Source of the DNA: Pseudomonas sp. RSB 5.4
Lineage (GTDB): Bacteria > Pseudomonadota > Gammaproteobacteria > Pseudomonadales > Pseudomonadaceae
NCBI RefSeq assembly: GCF_037126175.1
Contig: NZ_CP146986.1
Span: 2,880,501-2,944,500, forward strand
Length of the DNA stretch: 64,000 nt
Reading direction: 5' to 3'
The position numbers and the translations under genes are program-made. Below are positions 12,061-24,430 of the stretch, in pieces; the first letter of the stretch is position 1; every line of letters begins with the position of its first letter. The notes under the pieces are model-generated. The model was not told the origin of the DNA. It saw only the letters and a program-made list of their open reading frames with translations, and did no database searches.

Positions 12061-12325
12061 GAGATTGGTTGGCAGTCAGGCCACCTTCGCGAGCAAGCCC
12101 GCTCCCACAGTGGGCATGAGTTTATTCAGTTGGAGATTGGTCGGCTGTAGGGCCGCTATCGCCAGCAGGCTGGCTCCCACAGTGGGATTGAGGGAATTCA
12201 GTTGGAGAGTGGTTGGCTGTCAGGCCGTCTTCGCGAGCAAGCCCGCTCCCACAGTGGGATTGGGGGGAGTCAGTTGGAGATTGGTCGGCTGTCAGGCCGC
12301 CATCGCTGGCAAGCCAGCTCCCACA
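12061..12325. repeat. Tandem 72-bp repeat carrying alternating REP variants (about 3.7 copies)
   Basis: A unit marked by GAGATTGGT(T/C)GGC recurs at 12061, 12133, 12205 and 12277, exactly 72 bp apart. Copies 1 and 3 carry the fluorescens-type REP (TTCGCGAGCAAGCCCGCTCC). Copies 2 and 4 carry palindromic variants (GCCAGCAGGCTGGC and GCTGGCAAGCCAGC). The alternation suggests duplication of a 144-bp pair. A similar but shorter array with a period of about 70 bp precedes the second folded element at 22.5 kb. Confidence 0.8.
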
Positions 12326-12348
12326 AGATCAAGATCAAGATCAAGATC
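12325..12348. repeat. Hexanucleotide repeat (AAGATC)4
   Basis: Four perfect tandem copies of AAGATC, followed by a fifth interrupted one (AAAAGATC). It joins the REP array to the REP-like palindrome that precedes the folded element, and could vary in copy number between strains. Confidence 0.85.
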
Positions 12349-12376
12349 AAAAGATCGCAGCCTTCGGCAGCTCCTA

Positions 12377-12702
12377 CACAGGATGAGCGCAAGCTCGGCT
12401 GCAGCTCTTGATCTTGCCGTGCCGGCCCCATCGGCAGGCTGAGTGGAGGGGTTTATCCGGGGGTGGGAGCGCAGCGACGTTTGGCGCAGCCAAACACATC
12501 GAGAGGAGGTGCAGCGAAGCAAACCGGAGGCGATGCCCTCGGATGAATCCCGCAACGAAGGAACCCGAGCCTAAGCGAGGGCCGTACGCCGGGGCCAAGC
12601 CTTTTGCTTACTTTTCGGCGTCTGGAAAAGTGAGCCGCTGTAAGAGCGGAACCATAAGAAGCCGTTACCGCAGCAACGGATATTCACACCCCCCAACCAA
12701 GA
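12377..12702 (+). repeat. Folded dispersed element, copy A (candidate structured RNA or intergenic mobile element)
   Basis: About 325 bp strongly similar to 22663-22934 plus 24366-24416. Visible helices are: a GAGC-GCAA-GCTC tetraloop hairpin (12385-12396); an outer 13-bp helix, 12451-12463 with 12536-12548, containing three G-T pairs; an inner hairpin GTTTGGC-GCA-GCCAAAC (12479-12495); a helix CTTACTTTT/AAAAGTGAG (12607-12634); and CCGCT-GTAAG-AGCGG (12635-12649). Several pairs differ from copy B by compensatory changes, so the fold itself seems conserved. The G-T pairs can only be wobble pairs in RNA made from the plus strand. The minus-strand reading frame across it (RSHPRINPSTQPADG) is probably spurious. 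Confidence 0.75.
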
Positions 12703-12728
12703 ACCTGGTCGGCCCAGAGGCCGCCAAG

Positions 12729-22458: not shown

Positions 22459-22626
22459 CTTCGCGAGCAGGCTCACTCCTACAATTGGATCGAGTCCAGG
22501 CAGTTAGAGGTTGGTTGGCTGTAAGGCCGCCATCGCTGGCAAGCCAACTCCCACAAGGATTGAGGCCATTCAGTTGCAGATTGGTCGGCTGTCAGGCCGC
22601 CATCGCCAGCAGGCTGGCTCCTACAA
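22459..22626. repeat. REP-like tandem array before folded element B
   Basis: One degenerate REP (TTCGCGAGCAGGCTCACTCC) is followed by two units marked by TTGGT(T/C)GGCTGT at 22511 and 22581, about 70 bp apart. They carry the GCTGGCAAGCCAAC and GCCAGCAGGCTGGC variants. It is the same family as the 72-bp array at 12061-12325, and in both places it directly precedes a folded element. Confidence 0.75.
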
Positions 22627-22934
22627 AAAAGCAAAAGCCGACCACATGCTTTTCACCACTCAACAGGATGAGCGCAAGCTCGGCTGCAGCTCTTGATCTT
22701 GATCCACAGGCCCCGTCGGCAGGCTGAGTGGACGGATTCATCCGGGGGTGGGAGCGCAGCGACCGTTCGACGAAGTCGAACACATCGAGAGGAGGTGCAG
22801 CGAAGCAAACCGGAGGCGATGCCCCCGGATGAATCACGTAGCGAAGGAACCCGAGCCACAGCGAGGGCCGAACGTCGGGGCAAGCGTTTTGGGTTACTTT
22901 TTAGGCGTTTGTAAAAAGTGACTCGCCGTAAGGG

Positions 22935-24356
22935 CCATCCCTTTCAAGGTCTTAGGTAAAATCCCCTGAAATTTCAGTCAGGGATCCCCCGAAGATGTGG
23001 ACCGATGTTCTAGCTCGATTCGAAAAAAAAGCACCTGCCAGCGTCATGGCCAAGTTGGCGCTGGAGCAGGCTATTGCTCCTGAGTGGGTCGATCAGGTCT
23101 TCGAAGAACATCGGCAACGGCAGTATTCTCGTGAACTACTGTTCTCGACCATCATCAAGCTGATGTCCCTTGTTTCATTGGGTTTGAAGCCATCCCTGCA
23201 CGCCGCCGCTCGGCAACTGGAAGATCTTCCTGTCAGCTTGGCAGCCCTCTACGACAAGATCAGTCGTACCGAACCTGCTCTGTTGCGCGCGCTGGTCACA
23301 GGCTGTGCACAACGCCTGACCCCAACCATCAAAGAGCTGGGTTGCACCACGATGCTGCCGGGCTGGCAGGTTCGGGTGGTGGACGGCAACCACTTGGCAT
23401 CCACTGAGAAACGTCTGGGCGCTCTACGCCACGAGCGGGGTGCCGCTCGTCCTGGCTTTTCGGTGGTTGTCTACGACCCCGATCTCGATCAGGTCATCGA
23501 CCTTCAGGCATGTGAGGATGCCTACGCAAGCGAGCGTATTTGTGTGCTGCCTCTATTGGCTGATGCCGAGCCGGGCCAGGTGTGGCTGGCTGATCGACTC
23601 TACTGCACGCTCCCGGTTATGGAAGCTTGTGAGCAGGTCCAGACATCCTTTGTCATTCGTCAGCAAGCCAAGCACCCACGCCTGATTCAAGAGGGTGAGT
23701 GGCAAGAGCCCGTAGCTGTGGAAACAGGCACTGTGCGCGAGCAGATCATCCACGTCAGAGGCGGTTACCAATGGCGGCGCGTGGAACTGACGCTTCATTC
23801 GCCAACAGACTCGGGTGACAGCAGCTTGATGTTCTGGAGCAATCTACCTGAGAGCATCAGTGCACAGCAGATCGCAGAACTCTATCGCCGCCGCTGGAGT
23901 ATTGAGGGCATGTTCCAGCGACTGGAAGCGATCCTGGAAAGTGAAATCGAAACCCTTGGCAGCCCAAAGGCTGCCTTGCTCGGGTTCGCTACTGCGGTAT
24001 TGGCATACAACGTCCTGGCCGTACTCAAACGAAGTGTCGAACAAGCCCATCGCGACACCCAGCCTGAAGGCTGGGAAGCCTCGACCTACCACTTGGCGGT
24101 CCAGGTCAGGAGTGGTTATGAGGGAATGCAGATTGCGCTGCCCTCGGAGTACCTTCCCGTTATCCCTGCGGAAAAACTGGCTCAGCGCTTGTTGGAACTA
24201 GCCAGAAACATCCAGCCAAAACAAGTTGCGAAAAGCCCCCGAGGCCCCAAGGTGCCCAAGCCCAAAACGTGGGTCCAAGGCACAGCGGTGCATGCTCATG
24301 TTTCAACGGACAGGGTAATCAAGGCCGCCAAAACGAAAAGACCTTGAAAGGGATGG
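22935..24356 (+). mobile_element. Complete IS4-like insertion sequence, 1422 bp
   Basis: Perfect 19-bp terminal inverted repeats (CCATCCCTTTCAAGGTCTT at the left, its complement at the right) enclose one transposase gene. A perfect 9-bp target duplication, CCGTAAGGG, lies at 22926-22934 and 24357-24365. Intact ends, identical duplications and an open reading frame imply a recent insertion. The duplicated bases are the loop and inner stem of the last hairpin of folded element B, so the IS landed in a palindromic structure. I assign the IS4 superfamily from the transposase; I cannot name the element. Confidence 0.95.
22995..24347 (+). CDS. IS4-family transposase
   Basis: A 450-aa DDE transposase with an N-terminal IS4-type DNA-binding region (about residues 8-110). 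The catalytic triad reads Asp130 (VRVVDGNHL), Asp200 (VWLADRLYC) and Glu304 in YRRRWSIEGMFQRLE, the Y-x2-R-x3-E signature of IS4 enzymes. The usual Lys six residues further on is not conserved (Glu instead). The frame is intact. The TGA stop lies inside the right terminal inverted repeat, so coding sequence runs to the very end of the element. Confidence 0.93.
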   Translation: MWTDVLARFEKKAPASVMAKLALEQAIAPEWVDQVFEEHRQRQYSRELLFSTIIKLMSLVSLGLKPSLHAAARQLEDLPVSLAALYDKISRTEPALLRALVTGCAQRLTPTIKELGCTTMLPGWQVRVVDGNHLASTEKRLGALRHERGAARPGFSVVVYDPDLDQVIDLQACEDAYASERICVLPLLADAEPGQVWLADRLYCTLPVMEACEQVQTSFVIRQQAKHPRLIQEGEWQEPVAVETGTVREQIIHVRGGYQWRRVELTLHSPTDSGDSSLMFWSNLPESISAQQIAELYRRRWSIEGMFQRLEAILESEIETLGSPKAALLGFATAVLAYNVLAVLKRSVEQAHRDTQPEGWEASTYHLAVQVRSGYEGMQIALPSEYLPVIPAEKLAQRLLELARNIQPKQVAKSPRGPKVPKPKTWVQGTAVHAHVSTDRVIKAAKTKRP

Positions 24357-24430
24357 CCGTAAGGGCGAAACCGCCAGCCGCCACACCCAAACCAACGGAT
24401 ATGCCCACAACCCCAAAAAAGCCAAGGCGC

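Follow-up and report, generated by a model that had tools for sequence, protein, structure and literature searches.

The genomes of Pseudomonas fluorescens harbour several repeat families, of which the account of Silby et al. (2009; PMC2718517) describes R200 (320 bp, 47 copies in SBW25), R26 (352 bp, 20 copies in Pf0-1) and R178 (101 bp, containing an 11-bp inverted repeat), and it places P. fluorescens repeats in a tail-to-tail gene context. REPs, REPINs and BIMEs are short palindromic intergenic repeats, and REPs are described as targets of insertion sequences as well (ISPpu9). For the elements derived from IS200/IS605, lagging-strand insertion is described in PMC6006769. Among structured RNAs, TwoAYGGAY (Rfam RF01731) is presented in PMC2864571 as "probably" an RNA and probably not cis-regulatory; PMC4333381 proposes binding of CsrA and a possible role as a CsrA sponge.

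The window analysed here, a stretch of 64,000 nucleotides from Pseudomonas sp. RSB 5.4, contains two copies (A and B, Table 1) of an element with a full length of approximately 340 bp, extending from CCACTCA to GGATATNCACCC. The terminal CCACTCA is present in copy B (22656-22662) and missing from copy A. Repeats which by eye we presume to be REPs precede both copies, those of copy B at 22500-22650; they are neighbours of the element and not an invariable part of it. Hairpin H2 contains tandem G-A pairs in most copies of the P subtype and C-G pairs in the Q subtype and in some P copies. In size and copy number the element fits R200, R178 and R26, whereas no covarying fold, polarity or pairing is reported for these families in the sections of PMC2718517 considered here; that the element is one of the P. 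fluorescens R-family repeats is plausible from a comparison of published size and copy number only. REPs, REPINs and BIMEs often lie adjacent to the element, which in contrast is much larger, has a covarying fold of several helices and is directional. Unlike REPs and REPINs, it also occurs in genomes without a match to a Y1 transposase.

Table 1 Features of copies A and B in the window, with coordinates read from the sequence
Feature	Position	Strand	Description
REP-like repeats	12065-12378	.	Directly 5' of copy A
Copy A	12379-12694	+	P subtype; 5' end truncated against the REP-like cluster
H1, 5' arm	12448-12463	+	Outer helix of copy A; partner 12536-12551
H2	12466-12478	+	Hairpin of copy A; apex GCGCAGC
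H3	12479-12495	+	Hairpin GTTTGGC-GCA-GCCAAAC; inner hairpin of the sequence-only reading
H4	12497-12535	+	Hairpin; inner apex GCGAAGC
H1, 3' arm	12536-12551	+	Outer helix of copy A
H5	12560-12583	+	Hairpin; tandem G-A pairs
H6	12607-12634	+	Hairpin CTTACTTTT/AAAAGTGAG; conserved U-G wobble; 5' half of the domain of model R1
H7	12635-12649	+	Hairpin CCGCT-GTAAG-AGCGG; insertion-sequence target in other copies
3' end with H8	12662-12694	+	Hairpin H8 CCGTT...AACGG and ATATTCACACCC
Copy B, 5' part	22656-22934	+	From the terminal CCACTCA to the insertion-sequence junction
Insertion sequence	22935-24355	+	1,421 bp with ends CCATCCCTTTCAAGG...; inserted into the loop of H7 in copy B; separate from the element
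Transposase	22995-24347	+	450 aa; Pfam DDE_Tnp_1; encoded by the insertion sequence of copy B
Copy B, 3' remainder	24366-24409	+	Beyond the insertion sequence and its duplication

Searching the genome of the window at the DNA level with copy B recovered at least 29 copies (40 of 43 candidates were scored), and R1, a covariance model built on the 3' domain, gave the same count (150 of 1,439 scored). They comprise 23 copies of the P subtype and six of the Q subtype. The elements are intergenic and stand alone (P) or form inverted P-Q pairs: each Q copy adjoins a P copy in inverted orientation with the 5' ends facing each other, and REP-like repeats lie between the arms in all four own-genome pairs printed. 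The sequence-only reading had described similar sequences as common in Pseudomonas, and model R1 indeed matched 108 of the 119 genomes sampled from the genus at E ≤ 1e-4, with up to at least 45 matches per genome; the other 11 gave no match at this threshold. One gene adjoining the element shares up to 98% protein identity with named Pseudomonas records. A layout with the 3' ends facing each other, the reverse of the usual one, was seen in all six pairs of genome G104 and in 11 of the 20 pairs of genome G117, with starts approximately 190-270 bp apart (L100-L105 for both genomes).

Two copies alone are weak evidence for a fold. The paired changes that the sequence-only reading had listed are present: GTTTGGC/GCCAAAC of copy A is GTTCGAC/GTCGAAC in copy B, CCGCT/AGCGG is TCGCC/GGCGA, the pair at the foot of the TTACTTTT hairpin is C-G in one copy and G-C in the other, and the outer helix is perfectly paired in B and contains G-T wobbles in A. 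Among relatives, the 3' domain was evaluated in alignment A2, which contains 40 of 53 distinct sequences after exclusion of four insertion-split rows, two divergent rows with a long hairpin and seven near-duplicates. Its 15 pairs were standard in 99.5% of cells, compared with 85.0% in shuffled alignments and 37-57% after the partner columns had been slid by 1-3 positions, and nine of them had changed on both sides. The 39 pairs of the core (alignment A3, 57 of the 62 sequences kept from 152) were standard in 97.5% of cells (shuffles 90.4%, slid partners 32-41%); here 14 pairs had changed on both sides, with 147 such cells against 41 in the shuffles. For the 3' domain and the core alike, none of 500 shuffles reached the observed percentage of pairing, the counts of double changes or the covariation score, and the observed further pair types were reached by 82 and two of the 500 shuffles, respectively. 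Because the counted structures were derived from the same sequences, they have an advantage over the slid versions. With helices that hold at this level across relatives, the proposed conserved fold under selection is upheld.

The folding strand was assessed on 137 of 282 matches, namely those that were distinct, nearly full-length and without N. Named helices were used for these counts since consensus folding of the full alignment failed through dropped inserts (plus strand 29 pairs, energy -24.5; minus strand 8 pairs, -3.7). Without the tandem G-A pairs, the named helices of the 137 rows held 8,141 Watson-Crick, 382 G-U and 205 A-C cells. The terminal helix H8 accounts for 108 A-C and 10 G-U cells of these totals; it is poorly kept, with only 57% Watson-Crick pairs, and may be unreal. 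Outside H8, 372 G-U cells stand against 97 A-C cells, and this wobble excess therefore identifies the plus strand as the folded strand, in line with what had been concluded from the wobbles of copy A. Frequent wobbles speak for a fold of RNA rather than of single-stranded DNA, and in the 3' domain a U-G pair is conserved in 32 of 40 sequences. The folding energy was not unusual relative to shuffles (z -0.52 as RNA and -0.32 as DNA), and in the P copies it differed little between strands, being lower for the top strand in 15 of 19 copies as RNA and in 13 of 19 as DNA. A C-GNA-G apex was found in H2 of 115, H3 of 117 and H4 of 115 of the 137 rows; the apex of H4 reads GCGAAGC in 107 rows, and the loop of hairpin Hb is GUUA, GCAA or GUCA in 90. 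PMC4686876 gives as the rule for extra-stable DNA mini-hairpins a loop of GNA or GNNA closed by two or more G-C pairs; the apex loops of the element fit it, three hairpins having C-GNA-G and a fourth GNNA.

A protein-coding gene was rejected as an explanation, since stops occur in every plus frame of all 19 copies inspected. None of these copies was open in any plus frame, the three minus frames were open in two, four and three copies, and copy lengths vary out of frame. The remark that such sequences are mis-annotated as small proteins is consistent with this absence of a kept frame. A simple scan around copy A revealed no promoter-like site; on the minus strand it gave three terminator-like sites, where shuffles gave 0.8.

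In comparisons with Rfam, neither copy matched a family at the gathering cut-off, and copy A had no match up to E=5. The earlier statement that no named RNA family applies is accurate for the window to this extent; it does not extend to divergent members from the genus with the same 3' domain, which matched RF01731 with 61.6 and 52.7 bits (L008) and 43.3 bits (L019) at a cut-off of 43, other divergent members scoring below it. The own genome yielded no TwoAYGGAY match under strict filters (9 of 147 candidates scored). In a class-wide sample TwoAYGGAY was detected at E ≤ 1e-3 in 17 of 274 genomes, 13 of them over the cut-off; five genomes had at least nine matches, some arranged as -+ pairs approximately 225-280 bp apart. 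The R1 domain was present in five of 12 TwoAYGGAY loci outside the genus at E ≤ 1e-3 and in seven at E ≤ 0.1. Both types share an outer helix around hairpins and a conserved 3' flank like CCGGAGNGANGGNAC in alignment A1, whereas their hairpin stems align poorly there, so that homology hairpin by hairpin is uncertain. The commonest apex loops of the window type are GNA, in contrast to the two AYGGAY terminal loops of TwoAYGGAY; CATGGATG-type loops occur in divergent members such as L008. Among the commonest loops, counted in H2, H3, H4, H5, H7 and Hb, the ANGGA motifs of CsrA/RsmA do not appear, and a GGA is present inside the internal loop of H4 (AGAGGAGG). The Rfam entry is limited to the core, which it lists as an RNA without an assigned role. 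Our comparison suggests that this RNA may be the core of a multicopy repeat that is often paired, and a search for its RNA targets alone may be misdirected.

Around the gene adjoining copy A, 80 of 392 loci found were kept. A match of at least 100 bits, always in the same orientation, was present in 26 of them and a weak remnant in four (three plus, one minus); 50 were without a match, and for three of them the contig stops close to the gene. At a second site, represented by the 30 best of 96 genomes with the own genome included, 22 of the 29 other loci contained a match (E ≤ 0.01), single or paired, and seven contained none. Orthologous sites are thus filled in some genomes and empty in others, and the comparison of filled with empty loci at both sites resolved neither a target duplication nor a clean empty junction. 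Copy A has its closest relative in the orthologue L191 (98.1%). Of 23 orthologous copies, 15 resemble the nearest listed copy from outside the site at least as closely as their nearest counterpart inside it; one of these is L191, which lies nearest to the copy in the window at that site, and setting it aside leaves 14 of 22 with an equally close or closer copy elsewhere. For an exchange of sequence among copies, as in concerted evolution, the picture is mixed.

The insertion sequence that splits copy B is flanked by the 10-bp duplication GCCGTAAGGG (22925-22934 and 24356-24365). It was present in eight of 199 genomes sampled, no more than two places per genome being scored. Fifteen distinct insertions were readable, L273 among them being partial; in 14 of the 15, one flank or both fall in H7, and the insertion outside the element (L301) lies within a similar short palindrome. 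Identical 10-bp duplications, reading GCYGTAAGRG, its complement or near variants, accompany 11 of the 15. The insertion sequence is hence nearly specific for H7 of the element. Its duplications tolerate the covariation of H7 itself. By eye, other apparent insertion sequences are located in or beside the element at differing sites (L287; L179-L181 in G049; L182 in G062; L183 in G010), as if the element were a safe landing spot for unrelated insertion sequences.

In the own genome, dnaA is located at 4588183, and the GC skew, sampled in 20 stretches of 20 kb, flips sign near dnaA and between 1.3 and 1.5 Mb; as both agree, the replichores of this genome are set. All 17 of its lone copies are oriented against the replication fork. 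Judged by dnaA, with the terminus taken opposite and several genome sizes rounded, lone copies run against the fork in G000 (17/17), G019 (17/18), G005 (11/11), G010 (8/9), G059 (6/7), G062 (12/13), G097 (12/12), G113 (7/7) and G074 (10/10), together 100 of 104 in a group of nine genomes that was formed after the counts had been seen. Over all 17 genomes examined the count is 110 of 144: G042 (1/15) and G104 (2/12) depart from the rule, G003 (2/5), G012 (2/3), G018 (0/1), G077 (0/1) and G091 (3/3) together contribute seven of 13, and G117 has pairs only. Paired copies were left out of these counts, as were five weak matches in G019; one place in G059 that matched on both strands was counted as a pair, five lone copies of G074 lie within 50 kb, and the genomes are not independent, since copies in related genomes are partly inherited. 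The exception in G019 is a Q arm beside a P arm, and those in G010, G062 and G059 stay exceptions by local skew. In G530, the only genome tested outside Pseudomonas, two of three clear lone copies run against the fork by local skew, which is too few. The polarity is near-absolute in several genomes including that of the window and lineage-dependent beyond these. Gene direction was rejected as its cause, since convergent genes flank 12 of the 23 own-genome P copies, a count that becomes 11 of 19 once the four copies with the insertion sequence as their downstream call are set aside; the underlying ORF calls are crude and derive from codon-position GC.

Two genomes deserve separate treatment. 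The GC skew of G042, a single-contig genome, is a mosaic of signs. Its lone copies, 14 of 15 of which are wrongly oriented by dnaA, agree with the local skew in all 15 cases (two with a skew near zero), and of its two pairs tested in the same way one obeys the rule and one disagrees. The orientation in G042 has moved with the DNA, which favours an insertion bias over present-day selection. This chromosome (L119-L138) is either heavily inverted or mis-assembled. In G104 the polarity is reversed, 10 of 12 lone copies running with the fork both by dnaA and by KOPS-like counts, and eight of 12 by local GC skew.

We tentatively read copies A and B as members of one chromosomal, non-autonomous mobile repeat that is inserted strand-specifically during replication, an interpretation held with slightly less than even confidence. 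The folded plus strand, as RNA or single-stranded DNA, would be recognised by a trans-acting enzyme, and the element would spread or would have spread in the past by insertion coupled to the replication fork, which would put the minus strand on the lagging-strand template. Its orientation would then be a fossil of the strand used at insertion, and the copies would be long-lived, exchange sequence and serve as landing sites for insertion sequences. Strand-specific mobility would explain the polarity, the pairs, the empty sites and the pattern in G042. The palindromic mobility that the sequence-only reading had offered as an alternative to a folded RNA fits the polarity, the inverted pairs and the filled and empty sites better, but no mobilising enzyme was found. 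The wide pairs in G049, G062 and G010 were considered as a possible autonomous relative and rejected, since their ORFs by eye resemble ordinary transposases. Replication-coupled, strand-biased insertion like that of IS200/IS605 would produce such an orientation pattern, whereas the folding strand of our element lies on the leading-strand template and no IS605-like ends were identified. IS608 uses the opposite strand. For a mobile element, the near absence from plasmid and phage records is odd: at the sensitivity used, one partial match was obtained in 72,556 plasmid records, of which the Pseudomonas share is uncounted, and none in 50,697 phage records.

The same scarcity would be natural for a selected element of chromosome polarity, such as a site for fork restart, segregation or strand marking, or for hairpins tolerated only on the leading-strand template, in which the fold works as single-stranded DNA. 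The polarity in most genomes examined, the wide distribution within the genus and the apex loops that obey the rule for DNA mini-hairpins agree with a function of this kind. We nonetheless consider it somewhat unlikely: in all six own-genome pairs the Q arms have the same fold in opposite orientation, the polarity of G104 is reversed, 11 of the 119 genomes are without a match, and G042 keeps intact copies that are now wrongly oriented, a weaker point if that genome is mis-assembled. A structured RNA, whether a plus-strand transcript or a 3'-UTR element and perhaps bound by CsrA/RsmA as proposed for TwoAYGGAY, would account for the covariation with its many plus-strand wobbles and conserved U-G pair, for the tandem G-A pairs, and for the divergent members that match the CsrA binder proposed in PMC4333381. 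This explanation is unlikely, as it does not predict a replichore orientation independent of neighbouring genes; the scan around copy A found no promoter-like site, and with GNA as the commonest apex loops, CsrA binding via those loops is not the common function.

Mobilisation by a RAYT (Y1) transposase, as for REPs and REPINs, appears very improbable. The element is palindromic, intergenic and multicopy, REP-like repeats lie by eye within 90 bases 5' of the own-genome P copies, the own genome has four Y1 transposase matches, and for the REP arrays of SBW25 Bertels and Rainey (2011; PMC3116915) report a forward direction near 2 Mb and a reverse one near 4 Mb. However, 18 of the 119 genus genomes had no Y1 match at E ≤ 1e-5, and 16 of these carry the element, one of them with at least 45 matches, a count to be read with the provision that weak RAYTs could be missed. 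A simple REP/RAYT element was rejected on these genomes. Lone copies at one site (e.g. L280) are without an adjoining REP by eye, and the ends of the element are unlike those of a REP, which carry a GTAG tag.

Extending the reading as a strand-specific mobile repeat, TwoAYGGAY and the element might form one widespread gammaproteobacterial family of fork-oriented, paired and directional repeats that would write themselves into one strand at the fork by means of a folded single strand and an unrecognised enzyme, their orientation recording past replication direction even after rearrangement. This broader proposal is possible, if doubtful. The open-licence literature, covered mostly at the level of listings, yielded no paper describing the polarity of the element or a link to TwoAYGGAY; newly seen here are the fork polarity, the paired subtypes, the TwoAYGGAY link and the hairpin-targeting insertion sequence. 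Taken with the replication orientation, the preserved fold suggests that the element either spreads in an unusual manner or has an unusual role on the chromosome. An anonymous repeat thereby becomes a testable system with a selected fold, a near-absolute polarity in many of the genomes examined and no known enzyme, and the way the element is oriented may reveal former inversions of the chromosome without recourse to base composition.

Two further observations concern the surroundings of copy A. Just past its 3' end, the short palindrome CTGGTCGGCCCAGAGGCCGCCA occupies 12705-12726; similar palindromes follow seven other own-genome copies, one each, and such a palindrome persists at the element-free site L202. 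Between 10215 and 10836, a tRNA-Gly/tRNA-Glu pair is present in three tandem copies on the minus strand.
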